From: an uncultured Gammaproteobacteria bacterium | Lineage (GTDB): Bacteria; Pseudomonadota; Gammaproteobacteria; Rariloculales; Rariloculaceae | DNA: 9,123 nt | Direction of reading: 5' to 3' | Assembly: GCA_946887385.1 (NCBI GenBank) | Contig: CAMPKU010000187.1 | Coordinates: 1 to 9,123 of the forward strand | Shown here: positions 303 to 8,743 of the stretch, piece by piece | Numbering within the stretch: position 1 is the first letter of the stretch | How the letters are laid out: every line of letters begins with the position of its first letter | Position numbers and translations under genes: made by a program | The notes under the pieces: generated by a model | Database searches by the model: none | Told to the model about the DNA's origin: nothing | What the model saw: the letters and a program-made list of their open reading frames with translations, nothing else

Positions 303-2024
303 ATGGAAACCGAAGACGGGAACGAAGCCACACGCGGCCGCGACTTCATCAGTCAGATCGTCGCGGAAGACGTTGCGGCCGGTAAGAACGGCGGGCGAGT
401 GCAGACGCGCTTTCCCCCGGAGCCGAACGGCTACTTGCACATCGGCCACGCAAAGGCCATTTGCGTCGACTTCGGTATCGCGCGCGACTTCGGCGGCACC
501 TGCTTTTTGCGCTTCGACGACACCAATCCGGAACGTGAAACCGAAGAGTTCGTCGAGAGCATCAAGCGCGACGTGAGCTGGCTCGGGTTCGACTGGGGCG
601 ACCGCTTGCGCCACGCGTCGGATTACTTCCACACAATGCACGACTGCGCCATCGCGCTCATCGAGCGAGGGCTCGCGTACGTCGATCACCAGAACGCCGA
701 AGAGATCCGCAAGAACCGCGGCACGCTGACGGAGCCCGGCAAGAACGGCCCCTACCGCGACCGTTCGGTCGAGGAGAACCTGCGGCTGTTCGAGGGCATG
801 CGGCGCGGTGAATTCGATGAAGGCGCGTGCGTATTGCGCGCCAAGATCGATATGGCATCGCCGAACATCAATTTGCGTGATCCCACGCTGTATCGAATCC
901 GTAAAGTGCCGCACCAGCGCACGGGCAACGAATGGTGCATTTACCCGATGTATGACTACGCGCATACATTGTCGGACGCCATCGAAGGCACGACACACTC
1001 GCTCTGCACGCTCGAGTTCGAGGATCACCGGCCGCTGTACGACTGGTTCTTGGATCAGCTCTGGCAGGGAAAGCCGAGCCGGCCGCGGCAAATCGAATTC
1101 TCGCGCGCCAATCTCATGTACACGGTGACGAGCAAGCGCAAGCTGAAACAGCTCGTCGACGAGCAGCATGTCGAAGGCTGGGACGACCCGCGCATGCCCA
1201 CGCTGGCGGGCATCCGCCGCCGCGGCTATACGCCTAAGTCGATCGTCGAGTTCGTACACCGGATCGGCACCACGAAGAAGGAAAAGGTGGCCGAGCTCGG
1301 CCAGCTCGAAGGTTGCGTACGCGAGCACTTGAACGACATGGCGCCGCGGCGTTTTGCGGTGCTCGATCCGCTGCGAGTGATCATCGATACGTACGCCGAG
1401 GGCGAGGAGGAGTGGCTCGAGGCCGCGAACCATCCGAGCAAGCCCGAGCTCGGCAGTAGGCAGGTGCCGTTCGCGCGCGAGATTCTCATCGAGCGCGACG
1501 ATTTCATGGAAAACGCGCCGGGCAAGTTCCACCGCTTGAAGCCCGGCGGCGAAGTGCGCTTGCGCTACGCCTACATCGTGAAGTGCGAGCGCGTGGTGAA
1601 GGACGCCGCCGGCAACGTCGTGGAGCTGCACTGCAGCCACGATCCCGCCTCGCGCAGCGGATCCGACGAATCGGGTCGCAAGGTGAAGGGCACCATCCAC
1701 TGGGTGGCGGAGAAGCGCGCGCGTTACGCTGCCGTGCGGCTTTACGATCGCTTGTTCTCCGTGCCTTTCCCCGGCGACGACATCGCGAAGGAGCTGAACC
1801 CGCACTCGCTGAAGATCGTGACGCGCGCGGCGCTCGAGCCCAAGCTCATCGAGGCGCAGCCGGAGGAGCGGTTTCAGTTCGAGCGGCTGGGTTATTTCAC
1901 GGCCGACAGCACGCTGTCGAAGCCCGGAGCGCCCGTGTTCAACCGGACGGTGACCTTGCGCGACTCGTGGGCCAAGCTCGAGGCAGAAGCGCTGGCGACA
2001 TTGCCGCGCGCAGGGGCGGACTGA
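303..2024 (+). CDS. glnS: Glutamine--tRNA ligase (GlnRS)
   Basis: Cytoplasmic class I aminoacyl-tRNA synthetase that charges tRNA-Gln with glutamine using ATP. The 573-aa protein is close to E. coli GlnRS (554 aa). Visible signatures are [14 protein letters not shown] at residues 36-49 (the HIGH ATP site at 46-49), RFDDTNP at 70-76, the acceptor-stem/active-site block [17 protein letters not shown] at about 232-248, and the KMSKS-type loop VTSKRKL at 275-281, followed by [15 protein letters not shown]. The C-terminal half is the beta-barrel anticodon-binding region. The KMSKS-type loop has Thr276 where E. coli has Met, with the following Ser-Lys-Arg intact. The [11 protein letters not shown] form and DDTNPE separate it from GluRS (GltX). 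ATG 303 is the first in-frame start, but no good ribosome-binding site precedes it. The TGA shares its last base with the next ATG, suggesting coupled translation with the DUF2845 gene. Confidence 0.97.
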
Positions 2025-2362
2025 TGCTCCACGCGAAGCGCTGGGCTTGCGGTGCGGTGGCCGTCGCCGTTGCGCTCTTGGCGTGGGACGCGAACGCTCA
2101 ACGCACCATGCGCTGCGGCAACGGCCGGCTCGTGGACTTAGGAATGGTGGCTGCAGAGATTTTGGCGCGTTGCGGCGAGCCGAAAAACCGCAGCAGTGAG
2201 GAAATTCCGGTGCGCGCGCGTCTACCGAACGGCGCCGTGATACAGACCGGCACCACGCGCGTCGAGCGCTGGACGTACGAGCGCGGGCAGGGAGAGTTCG
2301 ACGCGCTGCTCACGTTCGAGGACGACAAGCTCGTGAGCATCGAGATCTTGGCGCAGCGCTAG
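2024..2362 (+). CDS. DUF2845-family exported protein
   Basis: A 112-aa protein of unknown function. Residues 1-25 look like a Sec signal peptide: positive H-A-K-R, an alanine/valine/leucine core at about 9-20, and the cleavage motif ANA before Gln26. The mature part has MRCGNGRLVDLG at about 29-40, then AAEILARCGEPK at about 43-54, then ERWTY at 81-85, and a C-terminal FEDDKLVSIEIL strand. This matches the DUF2845 layout of CGN...G.....V...CGEP...E.W.Y.......F..G.L..I. The two cysteines of the mature protein (31 and 50) could form a periplasmic disulfide, which is an inference. The start ATG overlaps the glnS stop by one base (TGATG), so translation probably depends on glnS ribosomes. An open frame continues upstream of this ATG within glnS, but it is only out-of-frame glnS sequence. 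Confidence 0.85.
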   Translation: MLHAKRWACGAVAVAVALLAWDANAQRTMRCGNGRLVDLGMVAAEILARCGEPKNRSSEEIPVRARLPNGAVIQTGTTRVERWTYERGQGEFDALLTFEDDKLVSIEILAQR

Positions 2363-2366: not shown

Positions 2367-3308
2367 TCACGCGGCGTCTCCCGCCGGTGCGTCGAGTGTC
2401 TCGGCGTGCGTGGCTTCGACGAGCCAGTCTGCGAACTCTCGCACCTGCGGCTTGGTTCTCGCGGCAGGCGATTCAACCACGTAATAGGCGCGCGACGAGG
2501 CTACCTTCTTCTTGAAGGGCGCCACGAGCTTGCGATCGCGCAGCAATTGCTTGAGCAACGGATGGCGCCCGAGTGCAACGCCATGGCCGTCGAGCGCGGC
2601 CTGAATGAGCTGATCGTAGTGCGTGAAATGCATCTTGCCTGCGGGCTCGAAGTCGCGCAGTCCAAGCGCATGGAACCACAGCTCCCAGTCGAGCCACGCC
2701 GCCCGCGTATGCTCGAGATATAGCAGCACGTGACGGTGCAAGTCCTCGGCGGTCACGAGCGGAACGTCGGGATCGCTCGCGAGCGCCGGGCTGCAAACCG
2801 GAAAAACCGTTTCGCCGAACAGCAGCCGCCCGCTCGTGGCGCTGCGCTCTGGCACGTAGCGCACCGCAAGATCGACTTGCGCCTGTTCCAGGTCGTCCAC
2901 GATGCCGTTCGTGGCGGAGATCCGCACGTCGAGCTGCGGATGGTTGCGCGTGAAACCGGCCAGGCGCGGTATCAGCCACAGCGATGCGAATCCGGGCGTG
3001 GTCGCAACCACCACAGTGTTCGTCGTCGCCGTGCGGTGCAGCCGTCGCGCGCTGTCGTGCAGCTTCTGTAGAGCCTCCTGTGCAGCTCTATAGAAGTGCT
3101 GGCCGTGCTCCGTGAGCAGCAGCGCGCGGGCGCGACGCTGGAACAGTTTGACCTTGAGGTGCTCCTCGAGCTGTTGAATCTGCCGGCTCACGGCGGATTG
3201 CGTCAGATTCAGCTCGGCTGCGGCCTTCGTGAACGACAGGTTCCGCGCGGCGGCTTCGAACGCCAGCAGCGGGTCTAGCGGCGGGACGTCGTAGCGTTGA
3301 TTACGCAT
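2367..3308 (-). CDS. LysR-family transcriptional regulator (GcvA/AmpR-like)
   Basis: A 313-aa DNA-binding regulator of normal LysR length. The N-terminal winged helix-turn-helix covers about residues 10-68: LDPLLAFEAAARNLSFTKAAAE, then LNLTQSAVSRQIQQLEE with the recognition helix at about 36-48, then FQRRARALLLTEHG. A linker helix at about 72-92 leads to the effector-binding domain from about 97 on (VVVATTPGFASLWLIPRL at 99-116, a typical start of RD-I; DLAVRY at 146-151). The LDPLLAFEAAAR.LSFT start and overall pattern resemble the GcvA/AmpR group, but the effector cannot be read from the sequence. It is convergent with the DUF2845 gene (4 bp between stops) and divergent from the small membrane-protein gene and osmC-like gene. 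By common LysR layout those divergent genes are the first candidate targets. Confidence 0.93.
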   Translation of the reverse strand: MRNQRYDVPPLDPLLAFEAAARNLSFTKAAAELNLTQSAVSRQIQQLEEHLKVKLFQRRARALLLTEHGQHFYRAAQEALQKLHDSARRLHRTATTNTVVVATTPGFASLWLIPRLAGFTRNHPQLDVRISATNGIVDDLEQAQVDLAVRYVPERSATSGRLLFGETVFPVCSPALASDPDVPLVTAEDLHRHVLLYLEHTRAAWLDWELWFHALGLRDFEPAGKMHFTHYDQLIQAALDGHGVALGRHPLLKQLLRDRKLVAPFKKKVASSRAYYVVESPAARTKPQVREFADWLVEATHAETLDAPAGDAA

Positions 3309-3447
3309 GCAAAAAATTCATGTATAGGATGCAGAAAGACCGTTTGTGATGGGCTTATGACAACAGCATTATGGCCGCCGTGCTAGTGGGGCGTTGGATC
3401 GAAAGGCCCCTGGATCATACGGAAACATCATGCAAAGGAGTCTCATC
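3309..3447. promoter_or_regulatory. Divergent intergenic region: lysR-type gene (-) / small membrane protein gene (+)
   Basis: This 139-bp AT-richer gap should hold promoters for both directions. On the minus strand a TATACA -10-like hexamer lies at 3326-3321, which would place the start of transcription a few bases before the LysR ATG (no good -35 seen). A near-exact 9-bp direct repeat, ATGCAAAAA at 3307-3315 and ATGCAGAAA at 3329-3337, has a 22-bp period (two helical turns), and a related ATGCAAAGG sits at 3430-3438. GGGGC at 3388-3392 and GCCCC at 3406-3410 could pair in the leader of the small gene. None of these is proven to be an operator. Confidence 0.4.
3434..3440 (+). promoter_or_regulatory. 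Strong ribosome-binding site deciding the start of the small membrane protein
   Basis: AAAGGAG lies 7 bp before ATG 3448. In-frame upstream ATGs at 3394 and 3430 lack such a site, so 3448 is the preferred start. Confidence 0.75.
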
Positions 3448-3609
3448 ATGTCCAACCGAATCGAACGAGCGCGGCGCCGGGTACGGCCCGTAGCCACTGC
3501 GTTGGCCCGCCCGAGCGACCTCTTCGGCGAAAGCCTGCCGGAGCTGGCGCTAGTGGTGGCCGTCGTCGCCACGGTAGTCAGCGCCGCGCTGGCGCTCGGC
3601 GGCGGCTGA
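3448..3609 (+). CDS. Small single-pass membrane protein, unknown function
   Basis: A 53-aa protein that I do not recognise. Residues 5-13 are strongly basic (ERARRRVRP begins the stretch), residues 14-29 form a polar linker ending in ESLPE, and residues 30-50 (LPELALVVAVVATVVSAALAL) are a clear hydrophobic helix. The protein ends in Gly-Gly-Gly. The charge pattern predicts an inner-membrane helix with the N-terminus in the cytoplasm. A strong ribosome-binding site at the right distance and codons like those of the neighbours support that it is real. The osmC-like gene follows after 56 bp with a nearly copied initiation site, so the two may be expressed together. Alternative longer starts (3394, 3430) would add residues with no hydrophobic character. 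A chance ORF cannot be fully excluded, because the opposite strand is also open here. Confidence 0.6.
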   Translation: MSNRIERARRRVRPVATALARPSDLFGESLPELALVVAVVATVVSAALALGGG

Positions 3610-3653
3610 CGCGCGCCCTCTTGCTTCGCGGCCCGTAGAATGGGGGCGACGAG

Positions 3654-3660
3654 AAAGGAG
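3654..3660 (+). promoter_or_regulatory. Ribosome-binding site of the OsmC-family gene
   Basis: AAAGGAG sits 5 bp before ATG 3666. A TAGAAT hexamer at 3636-3641 could be a -10 element, but no fitting -35 is visible. Confidence 0.7.
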
Positions 3661-3665
3661 ACATC

Positions 3666-4115
3666 ATGTCCGAGCATCGAGCCACGATCGATTGGCAGCG
3701 CAGCAGCGCCGACTTCACCTACCTCACTTACAACCGCGCGCACGACTGGCGGTTCACCGCGGCAACGGTGCCGGCGTCGGCGACGAAGGAGTACCGAGGC
3801 GACGAAAGCCGCGTGAATCCCGAAGAGGCCCTCGTGGCGGCGCTGTCGTCGTGTCACATGCTCACGTTTCTCGCCGTGGCCGCGAAACGCAAGCTGTCGC
3901 TCGATGCCTATCGCGACGAAGCCGTGGGCGTGCTCGAGAAGAACGCCGAAGGCAAGCTCGCGATTACTCGAGTTACGTTGCGGCCTACGATTCGATGGTC
4001 GGCCGGTGTAACGGTGTCGGCCGAGGATCTGGCCAAGATGCATCACGACGCGCACGAAGGATGCTTCATCGCGAGCTCCGTGAAGACCGAGGTCGTCGTC
4101 GATCCGCAGCCCTGA
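3666..4115 (+). CDS. OsmC-family peroxiredoxin-like protein
   Basis: A 149-aa cytoplasmic protein of the OsmC/Ohr superfamily, which uses a reactive cysteine pair to reduce organic hydroperoxides. The two family cysteines are present: Cys63 in LSSCHMLTFL (helix start) and Cys133 in EGCFIASSVK. These correspond to the peroxidatic/resolving pair of E. coli OsmC. The segment NPEEALVAALSSCH at 51-64 is the family hallmark, and HHDAHEGCF at 126-134 matches the second site. The N-terminal beta-strand region has W10, F17 and W28. The length fits OsmC rather than larger fusions. The start is set by AAAGGAG 5 bp upstream. It is convergent with the FAD-oxidoreductase gene (21 bp between stops). Peroxide detoxification beside a lipid-modifying operon is suggestive, but a functional link is only inference. 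A general OsmC-like role without peroxidase activity is also possible. Confidence 0.92.
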   Translation: MSEHRATIDWQRSSADFTYLTYNRAHDWRFTAATVPASATKEYRGDESRVNPEEALVAALSSCHMLTFLAVAAKRKLSLDAYRDEAVGVLEKNAEGKLAITRVTLRPTIRWSAGVTVSAEDLAKMHHDAHEGCFIASSVKTEVVVDPQP

Positions 4116-4136: not shown

Positions 4137-5483
4137 TTACCGCGCCGCGAGCGCTACCTTCTTGTACAACGTCTGCGCATTACCGCCGGCGTCGTACTTC
4201 GCCTTGAGCTTCCGATAAGCCGCGCCGTTGTAGAGCGCGTCGAACTCCGCTTCGCTCAAGAAGGTGGACGAGTACAGCATCTTGATGCCGCCCAAGTCGA
4301 AGCACTTGCGATCGAGGATCTTCGTGTAGTGATACGGCGGCATGCCGACGGGCCGCTGAACTTGGCAGTAGCAACCCAAGTTGAAGTAGAGCTCGTTCGG
4401 CACGACCGGATACAACGTGGGACTGCGCGGCGCCTTGATCGGCACGGCCGCCCACGGCCGCCCGCCCAAGTCGACGTTATCGATCGCGAACCGGATCAGC
4501 TCTTCGCCGTGCCGCCAGGGCACTTCCCAGTCTTGGATCAACGGCTCCATGCGCTCGTCGTGAATTCCGAGCTTGCCGAGCGCCTTGCGCTTGGCGGCCA
4601 CGTATTTCGTGTAAAACGCCGAGTTGCGCCAGCGCAAGGGCGCGTGGCGGCGAAACAGGTCGTAGAACCCCGTTTCCGGCACGTTCCAGAACCAATCGGG
4701 GTCGTAGCGGAAGATGTAGTCGAAGGTACTGAGGTAAACGTCGCGGCGCGTCTCCACGAGCTTGTAGAACACGCTGCGCCGCACGATGTCGTCGCACCAC
4801 GGCGCCTTGTCGACGAAGCGCCCGGTCATCAGGAAAAACCGGTTGTCCCCGAAGAACAGCCCTTCAACGAAGTGCAGGTCGGGCGACTCGGTGGCCACGC
4901 GCAGCGCCTCGAGGTATGCGGCCGCGTTGCGGAATTTCTCCATGTGCAGGTGCACGAAGGGCCCCGCAGGATGCAGCGCAATCTTGGCCCGGAGGATATA
5001 GCCGAGCGTTCCGTAGGAGTTCGGTAGCGCGTTGAACAGATCTGCGTGCTCGTTGTCGGGGCGTGCCGTGACGATCGTGCCGCCGGGCAGCAGCACGTCG
5101 GCCTCGCGCAAGCCGTCGTGCACGAACCCGTAGCGGAAACACGTCGACTCGATGCCGATACCTACCGTGGCTCCGCCCACCGTAATGTGCTTGAGCTCGG
5201 GGGCCACGAGGGGCAGAAAGCCGCGTTCGAGGCAGTACCGTACAACGGTCTCGTAAGTGGTGAGCCCTTCGACCTCGACGGTGCGCGCCGCTGCGTCGAG
5301 CCCGAGCACGTGGTTGAATTCGCCGAGCGACAAGCGGCGCGCCGCGGCGCCGCGCGGCTGATATCGGAACAGATTCGAGATCGTCGACTTCTCGAGCCGG
5401 AGCGGGCCGGGACCGCTTTGCCAGTTGCTCGTGAGCCGCGCGACCTTCAGCTCGTAGCTGTCAGGGGTGATCGCGGTAGACAT
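4137..5483 (-). CDS. DHCR24-like FAD-binding oxidoreductase, candidate TmsA/BfaA-type methylene-lipid reductase
   Basis: A 448-aa flavoprotein of the FAD_binding_4 (VAO/PCMH) fold. The FAD-binding loop is ITVGGATVGIGIESTCFRYG at residues 100-119, followed by DLFNALPNSYGTLGYILRAK at 148-167. The stretches HFVEGL..G....LMTG, ELYFNLGCYC and a C-terminal MLYSSTFLSEAEFDALYNG closely resemble the delta(24)-sterol reductase DHCR24 layout, which reduces a C=C bond. Actinobacterial TmsA/BfaA, which reduces 10-methylene to 10-methyl acyl chains, is a homologous flavoprotein. The start at ATG 5483 (MSTAITPDSY) overlaps the end of the upstream methyltransferase gene by 23 bp. A longer frame would begin with TTG at 5561 and run inside that gene, so I reject it. 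Translational coupling to a lipid methyltransferase makes a lipid substrate likely. Sterol-like or other substrates remain possible. There is no signal peptide. Confidence 0.88.
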   Translation of the reverse strand: MSTAITPDSYELKVARLTSNWQSGPGPLRLEKSTISNLFRYQPRGAAARRLSLGEFNHVLGLDAAARTVEVEGLTTYETVVRYCLERGFLPLVAPELKHITVGGATVGIGIESTCFRYGFVHDGLREADVLLPGGTIVTARPDNEHADLFNALPNSYGTLGYILRAKIALHPAGPFVHLHMEKFRNAAAYLEALRVATESPDLHFVEGLFFGDNRFFLMTGRFVDKAPWCDDIVRRSVFYKLVETRRDVYLSTFDYIFRYDPDWFWNVPETGFYDLFRRHAPLRWRNSAFYTKYVAAKRKALGKLGIHDERMEPLIQDWEVPWRHGEELIRFAIDNVDLGGRPWAAVPIKAPRSPTLYPVVPNELYFNLGCYCQVQRPVGMPPYHYTKILDRKCFDLGGIKMLYSSTFLSEAEFDALYNGAAYRKLKAKYDAGGNAQTLYKKVALAAR

Positions 5484-6726
5484 GCGCGCGCGTCCACGGA
5501 ACGTTCTTCGCACCGGTGCGCGCAAACAGCACCTGGAACAGTTGTAGCCTGCCCAAGACAAAGGCGGCGATCGAGCCCACGAGATACAAGCGCCAGGCGC
5601 GCACGAACGTCTCGTCGAACAACGACCGTACGGCCTCGACGTTCTCCTCGTAGCGCTGCAGCCAGCATTCGAGCGTCTTCGCGTAGTGCAAACGGATGTT
5701 TTCCACGTCGAGCACCGAGAAGCGGTGCGGCTCGAACATGTCCATCATCTCGCGCAGGGTGGGAGGATAGGCGCCCGGGAAAATGCGCTTGTCGATCCAG
5801 GGGTTCATGAGCGCAGGAGCGTCGCGGCCGATGCTGTGCACGAGGCCGCGGCCTTCGGGCGTCAACGCGCGGCTCATCAGTGCGCCTAAGTCTTGATAGT
5901 TGCCTTTGCCCACGTGCTCGAGCATGCCGATCGACACGAACGCGTCGTAGGTGCCCGTGAGGTTGCGGTAGTCGTCCTCGACAAACTCCACTTGGCTCGA
6001 AAGCCCGAGCCGCTTGGCCCAATCGCGCGAGTGCGCGATCTGCTCTTTGGAGATATTGAAGCTGCGCACGCGCACGCCGTAGTTCTTCGCCATGAACAGC
6101 GCGAAGCCGCCCCAACCACCGCCGGCCTCGACGACGCGCTCGCCGGCCTTGAGCTCGAGCTTGCGGCACACGTGGTGCATTTTTGCCTGCTGCGCCTCCT
6201 CGATCGTCATCGAAGGGTGCGCGAAGTAGGCGCATGTGTATTGCAGCGCCTCGCGGTCGAGCCACAACTTGTAAAAGTCGTTGCCGATGTCGTAGTGGTG
6301 ATGGATATTGCGCTTCGACTCGTGCAGATCCGGCGCGAGCTTGCGGCCGCGCGCCACGATGGCACCCACCGCCGTGTTCTTCTCGGTGTAGCGATAGGCT
6401 TCGAGCAGCAGCGTGAGGAGATCCCCGCGCACCTGGATGCGCCCGGCGCTGTACAGATCGCCGAAGTGTAGGTCCGGATTGATGATGAGCTGCCAGAGGG
6501 CCTTGCGGTCCATGATCCGCATGCGCACGGTGCCGTCGCGCGGCGTGACGTCGGGCGGGGAGTCCCACAGGCTCAAGCGCACCGACGAAGACGGTCCCAG
6601 CCTGGCCACGATTTGGGCGATGAGCCAGCGGTCCATGGCGCTCGGCTCGTGGCGCGCCGCGGCTGCCTCGTCAAAACCAACATCGGATGCCGGAACGCCC
6701 AACGGTTCCAAACGACTTCGGTTCAT
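5461..6726 (-). CDS. Cyclopropane-fatty-acyl-phospholipid synthase-like SAM methyltransferase, candidate TmsB/BfaB-type
   Basis: A 421-aa enzyme (E. coli Cfa is 382 aa) that transfers a methyl group from SAM to a double bond of a phospholipid acyl chain. An N-terminal lipid-binding domain covers about residues 30-115 and the Rossmann methyltransferase domain about 140-405. Visible motifs are HHHYDIGNDFYKLWLD at 142-157, LQYTCAYF at 161-168, SAM loop VVEAGGGWGG at 198-207, IGMLEHVG at 266-273, VHSIG at 296-300 and HYAKTLECW at 347-355. The residues known in E. coli Cfa as active-site or bicarbonate ligands (C139, E239, H266, I268, Y317) correspond to C165, E270, H297, I299 and Y348. The Cys of the usual GCGWGG loop is Gly203 here. 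CTCC on the plus strand at 6735-6738 reads as GGAG 8 bp before ATG 6726. The family alone cannot separate cyclopropanation from methylene formation; the overlapping reductase gene argues for the latter. Confidence 0.9.
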   Translation of the reverse strand: MNRSRLEPLGVPASDVGFDEAAAARHEPSAMDRWLIAQIVARLGPSSSVRLSLWDSPPDVTPRDGTVRMRIMDRKALWQLIINPDLHFGDLYSAGRIQVRGDLLTLLLEAYRYTEKNTAVGAIVARGRKLAPDLHESKRNIHHHYDIGNDFYKLWLDREALQYTCAYFAHPSMTIEEAQQAKMHHVCRKLELKAGERVVEAGGGWGGFALFMAKNYGVRVRSFNISKEQIAHSRDWAKRLGLSSQVEFVEDDYRNLTGTYDAFVSIGMLEHVGKGNYQDLGALMSRALTPEGRGLVHSIGRDAPALMNPWIDKRIFPGAYPPTLREMMDMFEPHRFSVLDVENIRLHYAKTLECWLQRYEENVEAVRSLFDETFVRAWRLYLVGSIAAFVLGRLQLFQVLFARTGAKNVPWTRAHVYRDHP

Positions 6727-6960: not shown

Positions 6961-8019
6961 ATGACGCACACCATAACTCATTGGCAGACCCAGGCAGCCG
7001 TCAAGGACCGCCTCATGAGGCCGCTGCGCGATTTGCGCATTTCGGTCATCGATCGCTGCAATTATCGCTGCCCGTACTGCATGCCCGCCGACCTGTTCGG
7101 CGAGAACCATACATTTTTGCCGCGCGCGAACTGGCTCACGGCGGGCGAGATCAAACGCGTCGCCAGCGTGTTTGTGCAGCTTGGCGTGAAGAAGCTCAGG
7201 CTCACGGGTGGGGAGCCGCTGCTGCGCCGCGACATCGTCGAGATCGTTGCCGGTCTTACCGAGCTCAATGGCGTGGACGACCTGGCAATCACGACGAACG
7301 GCTCGCGGCTGGCCGAGCATGCCGCCGCGCTCAAGCGAGCGGGGTTGCAGCGCATCACCGTGAGCCTCGATAGTCTGGACGCGCAAGTGTTCAAAGAGAT
7401 GAACGGTGGGCGCGGGGAGCTCGACGTTGTGCTGCAGGGCATCGAAGCGGCCCGCGCGGCCGAGCTGCCGATCAAGATCAACACGGTGGTCGAGCGCGGC
7501 AAGAACGATCACACGGTGCTCGAGCTCGTCGAGCGCTTTCGTGGCACCGGCATCATCGTGCGCTTCATCGAATACATGGACGTCGGCACCGTGAACGGTT
7601 GGGAGCCGAAGCAAGTCGTGCCGTCGAAGGAGCTGCTGGCCACTCTGAGCGCGCGCTGGCCGTTGTCGCCTCTCGGCAGCAATTATCGAGGCGAGGTGGC
7701 CAAGCGCTACGCATTCGACGACGGCCAAGGCGAAATCGGCTTCATTTCCTCGGTGAGCGAGCCGTTTTGCGGCGACTGCCACCGCGCACGGCTGTCGGCT
7801 GACGGTACCGTGTACACCTGCTTGTTCGCGTCGAGCGGCACGGAGCTGCGCACGCCGCTGCGCGCGGGCGCCAGCGACGCGGACCTCGTGGGCTTGCTGC
7901 AGAACGTGTGGCGCAACCGCACGGACCGCTACAGCGAGATTCGCGGCCGGCTGCTCGAGCACAAGCCGGAGGGCACGGAGAAGCGCGAGCGAGTCGAGAT
8001 GTACCGGATGGGCGGCTGA
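6961..8019 (+). CDS. moaA: GTP 3',8-cyclase MoaA (radical SAM)
   Basis: First enzyme of molybdenum-cofactor synthesis: it rearranges GTP to 3',8-cyclo-GTP, which MoaC turns into cyclic pyranopterin monophosphate. In the 352-aa protein the radical-SAM cluster is C33-x3-C37-x2-C40 (DRCNYRCPYC), with LRLTGGEPLLRRDI at 79-92 for SAM binding. The second, GTP-binding 4Fe-4S cluster uses C270, C273 and C287 (EPFCGDCHRARLSADGTVYTC). The protein ends in the catalytic Gly-Gly tail (351-352). The length is slightly above E. coli MoaA (329 aa), partly from a longer N-terminus. I keep ATG 6961 because residues 14-30 (VKDRLMRPLRDLRISVI) still follow the family; an ATG at 7015 with AAGGA 7 bp upstream is the alternative. 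The stop overlaps moaC by one base (TGATG). Confidence 0.97.
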   Translation: MTHTITHWQTQAAVKDRLMRPLRDLRISVIDRCNYRCPYCMPADLFGENHTFLPRANWLTAGEIKRVASVFVQLGVKKLRLTGGEPLLRRDIVEIVAGLTELNGVDDLAITTNGSRLAEHAAALKRAGLQRITVSLDSLDAQVFKEMNGGRGELDVVLQGIEAARAAELPIKINTVVERGKNDHTVLELVERFRGTGIIVRFIEYMDVGTVNGWEPKQVVPSKELLATLSARWPLSPLGSNYRGEVAKRYAFDDGQGEIGFISSVSEPFCGDCHRARLSADGTVYTCLFASSGTELRTPLRAGASDADLVGLLQNVWRNRTDRYSEIRGRLLEHKPEGTEKRERVEMYRMGG

Positions 8020-8501
8020 TGTTGTCGCACGTCGATTCATTGAACCGTCCCACCATGGTCGACGTCGGCGACAAGGCCGTTACCACGCGTACGGCCACGG
8101 CGCGGGCCGTCGTGGTGTTTCCGCCGGACGTCGCCGTGCGTTCGGGCGAAGCGCTGCGCACGAAGAAGGGACCCGTGTTCGACACGGCGATCATCGCCGG
8201 GGTCATGGCCGCGAAGCGCACGCACGAGCTGATTCCGTTCTGCCACCCGATCCCGCTCGAGGATTGCAAGATCGCGATCGACTGGGGGCAGGGCAACGAG
8301 GTCGTCATCGAATGCTCGGTGCGCGCCACGCACAAAACCGGCGTCGAGATGGAAGCGCTCACCGGCGCCACGACGGCAGCCCTCACGATCTACGACATGT
8401 GCAAGGCCCTCACGCACGGCATCGCCATCCGCGAAGTGGTGCTGCTCGCCAAAGCCGGAGGCAAGCGCGACTATTTGGCGGCCGGCGAGAGAACGGCATG
8501 A
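8019..8501 (+). CDS. moaC: Cyclic pyranopterin monophosphate synthase MoaC
   Basis: Converts 3',8-cyclo-GTP from MoaA into cyclic pyranopterin monophosphate; a cytoplasmic hexamer in known members. At 160 aa it is almost the same length as the E. coli protein (161 aa). Signatures are MVDVGDKAVTTRTATA at 13-28, RTKKGPVFDTAIIAGVMAAKRT at about 47-68, LIPFCHPIPL at 71-80, ATHKTGVEMEALTGA at 103-117 and IYDMCKA at 124-130. The KTGVEMEALT block and the DMCKA Asp126/Lys129 are the catalytic region in the family, and all are intact. ATG 8019 overlaps the moaA stop by one base. The frame is open further upstream inside moaA, but that part shows no MoaC similarity. Its TGA overlaps the moaD ATG (ATGA), so the genes should be translationally coupled. 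Confidence 0.97.
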   Translation: MLSHVDSLNRPTMVDVGDKAVTTRTATARAVVVFPPDVAVRSGEALRTKKGPVFDTAIIAGVMAAKRTHELIPFCHPIPLEDCKIAIDWGQGNEVVIECSVRATHKTGVEMEALTGATTAALTIYDMCKALTHGIAIREVVLLAKAGGKRDYLAAGERTA

Positions 8502-8743
8502 CGATCGAAGTCACGGCGCATTACTTCGCGGCGTTTCGCGAGCGCGCGGGGCGCGATTCCGAGCGCGTAAGCACGGAGGCGCGCACGGCAGCCGATCTTT
8601 ACGGCGAGCTCGCCCGCCGGCACGGCTTCGCCGACTCGGTGACGCGCTGCAAAGTGGCAGTCAACGACGAGCTCGCCGACTGGAACGTGACGCTCACGGC
8701 CGGCGACGAAGTCTTGTTCTTTCCACCCGTCGCCGCCGGTTGA
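8498..8743 (+). CDS. moaD: Molybdopterin synthase small (sulfur-carrier) subunit MoaD, with atypical Ala-Gly C-terminus
   Basis: Ubiquitin-like sulfur carrier. Its C-terminal glycine is adenylated by MoeB, turned into a thiocarboxylate, and inserted into MoaE to add the dithiolene sulfurs to the pterin. The 81 aa equal the E. coli length. The start MTIEVTAHYFAAFRERAG, the middle CKVAVNDELADWN at 51-63 and GDEVLFFPPVAAG at 69-81 fit MoaD. The family ends in Gly-Gly (E. coli ...PPVAGG), but here the last codons are GCC GCC GGT TGA, giving Ala-Ala-Gly, so the penultimate glycine (position 80) is replaced by alanine. The terminal Gly81, which carries the sulfur, is kept. The position between moaC and moaE leaves little doubt about identity, while full activity is less certain. 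ATGA overlap with moaC; 6 bp gap to moaE. Confidence 0.93.
   Translation: MTIEVTAHYFAAFRERAGRDSERVSTEARTAADLYGELARRHGFADSVTRCKVAVNDELADWNVTLTAGDEVLFFPPVAAG

Follow-up and report, generated by a model that had tools for sequence, protein, structure and literature searches.

A putative hybrid operon of a TmpB-like methyltransferase and a BfaA-family flavoprotein in an uncultured gammaproteobacterium

Two overlapping genes of an uncultured gammaproteobacterium, one for a CFA-family SAM methyltransferase and one for a flavoprotein, raise the question of which lipid they make together: ordinary cyclopropane chains, furan fatty acids or mid-chain methyl-branched chains. The stretch of DNA analysed, referred to as the window, is 9,123 nucleotides long. 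In the account of Blitzblau et al. (PMC7791843), BfaB and TmpB make 10-methylene chains, which BfaA reduces; tmpBA is described there as a proteobacterial operon whose TmpA is a relative of geranylgeranyl reductases and not homologous to BfaA. The tmpBA pathway is therefore already known, and the first-pass annotation, which had read the window genes as a proteobacterial tmsB/tmsA (bfaB/bfaA) pair, did not mention it. The reading favoured here, at a probability of roughly 70%, is that the two genes form an operon, a hybrid of tmpB-like and bfaA-family genes, which would make mid-chain methyl-branched phospholipid acyl chains.

The layout of the locus is given in Table 1; the Pfam scan covered 10 gene products of the window rather than every ORF. 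The overlap of the two minus-strand genes, already noted in the first-pass annotation, agrees with their coordinates, and the nearest relative (L025/L123) shows an identical 23-bp overlap. Among 30 related loci, 16 of 25 same-strand pairs overlap or are spaced by at most 3 bp, as measured with automatic start-codon choice and with two of the 25 yielding no value. The order moaE-moaC-moaA, methyltransferase-flavoprotein, glnS recurs in L001, L002, L004 and L025, and partly in L003, L005 and L029. The L029 contig is labelled Rhodospirillales, yet its proteins and gene order fit the gammaproteobacterial relatives, and it is perhaps misnamed or misbinned. At E 1e-8, none of the 30 related loci, some of them short, gave a match to the LysR and OsmC genes that separate the operon from glnS (2367-4115), and promoter and terminator scans gave results near chance. 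Several draft genomes (L025/L123, L026, G271:C34) have a broken reading frame for the flavoprotein, through either sequencing error or decay.

Table 1. Genes and gene overlap in the window.
Feature	Position	Strand	Remarks
glnS	303-2024	+	
DUF2845 gene	inside ORF 1583-2362	+	
GcvA-like LysR regulator	2367-3308	-	287.3 of 288 bits, just under GcvA cut-off
OsmC-family gene	3666-4115	+	
BfaA-type VAO-fold flavoprotein, second operon gene, putative methylene reductase	4137-5483	-	ATG at 5483, 448 aa
CFA-family SAM methyltransferase (TmpB-like), first operon gene	5461-6726	-	ATG start, 421 aa
Overlap of methyltransferase stop and flavoprotein start, 23 bp	5461-5483	-	read directly from sequence
moaA	6961-8019	+	
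moaC	8016-8501	+	
ThiS/MoaD-family gene	8501-8743	+	
moaE	from 8750	+	

The first gene product matches the CMAS family (PF02353, E 2e-78, 263.9 bits). The CFA-synthase active-site residues claimed for it are all present: Y137, C139, G236, E239, H266, I268 and Y317 of E. coli Cfa correspond to Y163, C165, G267, E270, H297, I299 and Y348 of the window protein, and the bicarbonate-site residues are kept. This retention of every Cfa catalytic residue checked is what would be expected if the protein were simply a cyclopropane fatty acid synthase and the neighbouring flavoprotein were unrelated or auxiliary to it, and the combination of R at E. coli position 314 and no D at 318, common to Lactobacillus and Aquifex enzymes named cyclopropane synthases, points the same way. 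Such an arrangement is nevertheless improbable. The protein falls under the curated cut-offs of all three matching NCBIfam cyclopropane fatty acid synthase models (314.9 of 600, 262.9 of 650 and 261.9 of 400 bits), its partner flavoprotein is homologous to BfaA, and a TmpA-like or BfaA-type flavoprotein adjoins at least 31 of the 41 window-type genes surveyed below.

The R314/no-D318 pattern was also considered as a mark of methylene formers. It is found in 46 of the 53 methyltransferases that adjoin a BfaA-type or TmpA-like reductase and in none of 17 DUF1365-linked ones. The candidate was dropped because the pattern is shared by 5 of 13 other CFA genes and, in the alignments, by the solved enzymes 5z9o and 7qos, which are named cyclopropane synthases and which PMC11387697 lists as the Lactobacillus acidophilus and Aquifex enzymes, respectively.

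The lineage of the methyltransferase was examined in quick trees, one with 8 tmpBA-type operons and later ones with 14. These operons were recognised by a CMAS gene with a TIGR02032 gene immediately behind it, and 14 were fetched. The sample was picked by gene neighbourhood; L073, L097 and one L053 piece were left out, as were a second L053 piece and L131 in the later trees. The window protein lies within a 33-row clade of 92 rows (SH-aLRT 100), composed of 17 partners of clade A flavoproteins and 2 partners of clade D flavoproteins (both clades are described below), 11 of the 14 tmpBA-type methyltransferases, and three unlinked genes of genomes that contain a BfaA-type gene. The other three sampled tmpBA-type methyltransferases fall outside it. 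Identity is 45-55% to the 11 tmpBA-type members, compared with 30% to Nonomuraea BfaB and 31% to E. coli Cfa.

The first-pass annotation had identified this protein with TmsB (BfaB). That identification did not hold: it does not share a clade with actinobacterial BfaB, and a tree joining its ten-row group with BfaB was rejected (AU p 5.9e-13). The published BfaB-TmpB identity of 31% (PMC7791843) provides a weak consistency check, as it fits the 33-row clade (28-31% to Nonomuraea BfaB) and also the outlying tmpBA-type L114 (33%), but not the two remaining outliers (45-47%). The 120 matches listed per protein search included no named TmpB of Marinobacter or Thiohalospira, and the experimentally tested TmpB proteins (Marinobacter, Thiohalospira, Desulfobacter) are absent from the tree. 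The window methyltransferase is assigned to the tmpBA-type lineage, with membership in that lineage defined by operon layout.

The second gene product carries a FAD_binding_4 domain (PF01565, E 8.4e-12). Its likeness to TmsA (BfaA), proposed earlier, is supported over the full length of the protein, with 33-37% identity to proteins of actinobacterial bfaAB-like loci. One of these references is backed by synteny: in a Tsukamurella locus, recR, ybaB, an amidase gene and an SRPBCC gene lie upstream of the FAD protein and the methyltransferase gene downstream, a layout in agreement with the genes that the published bfaAB map names in its legend. Across 32 flavoprotein sequences of both clades, 41 residues are invariant.

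In the trees, from which five rows, and in another nine, had been dropped (broken pieces, duplicates and one long branch), the window flavoprotein falls outside the actinobacterial BfaA clade. It belongs to a sister clade, A (support 95/94), while BfaA groups with a proteobacterial clade, D (89/97). Fifteen positions are fixed differently between clade A and BfaA plus clade D, including F258W, Y260W, N267C, Y372W and M402S. Both clades also occur side by side: on a 4.2-Mb betaproteobacterial chromosome (L013:4616-8691), three genes stand in tandem on one strand, encoding a methyltransferase and flavoproteins of clade A and clade D. This tandem suggests that the two reductases are not redundant there and may do different things. 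In view of this and of the depth of the split, the window reductase may differ from BfaA in its exact reaction.

Genomic neighborhoods support a functional link between the two genes. The pairing of methyltransferase and flavoprotein, which the first-pass annotation expected to be conserved, was found in 27 of the 30 related loci, the exceptions being L016, L017 and L030, the last of which ends at a contig edge. In the survey described below, a CFA homologue lies beside 7 of the 11 strong BfaA-type matches, and the strong BfaA-type gene is away from any methyltransferase in the other 4 genomes. This adjacency is beyond chance. The methyltransferase comes first in 19 of the 27 two-gene loci, the flavoprotein in six (L015, L018, L019, L020, L022, L027), and the genes lie on opposite strands in two (L010, L021). 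The gene coordinates of the window bear out the methyltransferase-first order, reversed with respect to actinobacteria, that had been pointed out before.

The flavoproteins are not tied to one kind of methyltransferase. BfaA-type proteins partner at least four lineages, namely BfaB, the tmpB-like clade of the window, a Betaproteobacteria/Variovorax lineage and classical Cfa-like enzymes. The tmpB-like and betaproteobacterial lineages are each found with both clade A and clade D reductases, and the classical Cfa-like methyltransferase partners clade A in six loci. A tree placing all sampled BfaA-type partners in a single methyltransferase clade was rejected (AU p 1e-33).

Several loci stand somewhat apart. 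Contigs labelled Woesearchaeota, Saccharibacteria and Levyibacteriota likewise carry the pair (L014:4886-7335, L026, L022, L024), in three of the four (L014, as L033, L026 and L024) with classical Cfa-like partners; the two L014 genes share 4 bp and lie beside a class I tRNA synthetase gene, not far from one for a Lon-like protease. It would be odd for such reduced genomes to remodel their lipids, and the contigs may be misbinned. On Paracoccus and Sulfitobacter plasmids (L074:5983-8363, L079:5908-8300), a CFA-family gene shares 4 bp with its neighbour, which is annotated as type II glyceraldehyde-3-phosphate dehydrogenase; the two are possibly a further two-gene lipid operon.

Because the tree sample had been chosen by neighbourhood, a second test took the methyltransferase as its starting point and covered 274 genomes of the same class. 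Window-type methyltransferases were defined by E <= 1e-80 and strong BfaA-type genes by E below 1e-70, and the positions of methyltransferases and reductases were compared by eye. A window-type methyltransferase is present in 41 of the 274 genomes. A TmpA-like (TIGR02032) gene follows it directly downstream on the same strand in at least 27 of the 41, a lower bound, as at most 8 candidates were scored per genome. A strong BfaA-type gene lies beside the methyltransferase in four genomes (G001, G271, G212, G042) and elsewhere in the genome in another four (G088, G170, G061, G119). None of these arrangements was among the matches listed for six (G245, G242, G127, G180, G034, G159); G242 and G127 hold a tmpBA-type operon with another methyltransferase elsewhere in the genome, and G180 and G034 hold a distant FAD relative (35% or less).

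None of the 41 genomes combines a TmpA-like neighbour with a strong BfaA-type gene among the matches listed (Fisher p 3e-5 within the 41, to be read as indicative because survey genomes share ancestry and are not independent samples). Weaker TIGR02032 matches occur elsewhere in the BfaA-type genomes G061, G119, G146 and G212, and TIGR02032 is a broad model, so the exclusion concerns the TmpA-like neighbour and not the whole family. Strong BfaA-type genes are present in 11 of the 274 genomes: 8 of the 41 with a window-type methyltransferase and 3 of the 233 without (p 1.6e-5, likewise indicative). The latter three (G146, G099, G220) adjoin another CFA lineage. That the two reductase types exclude each other next to this methyltransferase supports the view that the flavoprotein fills the slot of TmpA as a methylene reductase, a relationship that is read as non-orthologous replacement. 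In the favoured hybrid operon, a flavoprotein reduced by NADPH would, in the second step, saturate the exo-methylene group to give the methyl branch, as its homology to BfaA and its slot in the operon suggest. A mid-chain methyl-branched product is accordingly what we best infer for the pair.

A different assignment of the second step can be formulated, in which the methyltransferase yields an exo-methylene chain or a methylated alkene and the clade A flavoprotein carries out another redox step, acting on another alkene position, isomerising or desaturating. The deep split of clade A with its fixed differences and the A-D tandem in L013 are compatible with this, and so is the structure search, which gave a VAO fold, no indication of the substrate, and PDB relatives that, among the matches listed, are oxidases or dehydrogenases; DHCR24 was not among the matches listed. 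We regard this assignment as unlikely, however, since the same methyltransferase lineages are found with clade A in some loci and with clade D in others, and clade A sits in the slot of TmpA. DHCR24 reduces a C=C bond by means of FAD, and the DHCR24-likeness pointed out in the first-pass annotation is borne out in kind: the window flavoprotein aligns with human DHCR24 over 414 positions (27% identity, E 1e-35, against an approximate DHCR24 sequence and not a database entry), a lead that would likewise speak against another redox step.

The furan pathway also begins with a methylated acyl chain from a SAM methylase (PMC7380195), and the window pair could in principle belong to a pathway of the UfaM/UfaD/UfaO type. 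The first-pass annotation ranked this route as the main alternative, and it is indeed the weaker reading, with very little probability left to it. No DUF1365 (UfaO) gene was found among the 10 scanned gene products of the window. DUF1365 matches occur in 77 of the 274 genomes; of the 11 genomes that have a strong BfaA-type gene, 2 (G146, G212) show such a match and 9 do not, no different from the class at large (p 0.73, again indicative). The flavoprotein of one scanned DUF1365 operon (L131) is of the amine-oxidase type, not FAD_binding_4. Of 20 DUF1365 loci fetched, L081 and L082 had no CFA match in their short flanks and L097 was omitted; the methyltransferases of the remaining 17 (L083-L096, L098-L100) all align with E and Q at Cfa positions 236 and 266, where the window protein has G and H, as do E. 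coli Cfa, BfaB, the tmpBA-type and the BfaA-partnered enzymes. E236 and Q266 beside DUF1365 genes are possibly a mark of methylated-alkene formation.

On a broader scale, we lean somewhat towards viewing the second methyl-branching step as a swappable slot, in which flavoenzymes of two unrelated folds, the BfaA and the TmpA type, have taken each other's place behind a single methyltransferase lineage. The BfaA type would have been captured by at least four CFA lineages, including those on contigs labelled candidate-phylum bacteria and Woesearchaeota, and clade A may have a substrate of its own. Blitzblau et al. (PMC7791843) judged bfa and tmp to have evolved independently, as their reductases, gene orders and hosts differ. 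The hybrid operons connect bfa with tmp and suggest non-orthologous replacement as another possible history. TmpA is reported as inactive in E. coli or yeast (PMC7791843), a practical gap on which the hybrids bear, as pairing TmpB-like methyltransferases with reductases of BfaA type may work aerobically. The hybrid further predicts methyl-branched rather than cyclopropane lipids in proteobacteria whose methyltransferase carries just the name of a cyclopropane synthase. In the titles and abstracts listed from open-access PubMed Central, no hybrid of tmp-type and bfaA-type genes was described.

Among known systems, DHCR24, a sterol delta-24 reductase, differs from the window flavoprotein in its substrate. 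E. coli Cfa resembles the window methyltransferase in family and bicarbonate-site residues and differs in overall sequence and in the window protein's scores under the Cfa models; a flavoprotein partner was looked for in E. coli, and none was found. UfaM/UfaD/UfaO (PMC7380195) likewise combine a SAM methylase acting on fatty acyl chains with redox enzymes acting on phospholipid chains, whereas the window differs in DUF1365, flavoprotein family and active-site residues, as set out above. The actinobacterial 10-methylstearate operon bfaAB (tmsAB; PMC5660069, PMC7791843) shares with the window a reductase homologous over its full length, two genes that overlap or nearly touch, and both predicted activities; it differs in its reversed gene order, in a methyltransferase of another CFA lineage (p 6e-13) and in a reductase to which that of the window is a sister-clade relative. 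The proteobacterial 10-methylpalmitate operon tmpBA (PMC7791843) shares the methyltransferase lineage (by operon layout), the methyltransferase-first order and the bacterial class. It differs in the reductase: the TmpA-type neighbours are geranylgeranyl reductase kin of the Rossmann type (FAD_binding_3/DAO in the two scanned), whereas what follows the window methyltransferase is not a TmpA-type reductase but a FAD_binding_4 protein of BfaA type and VAO fold. Of the tmsB/tmsA pair originally proposed, the reductase half stands and the methyltransferase half gives way to the tmpBA type. With a TmpB-like methyltransferase, a BfaA-like reductase and the tmp gene order, the window appears to hold a natural hybrid, a mixture of two known systems.
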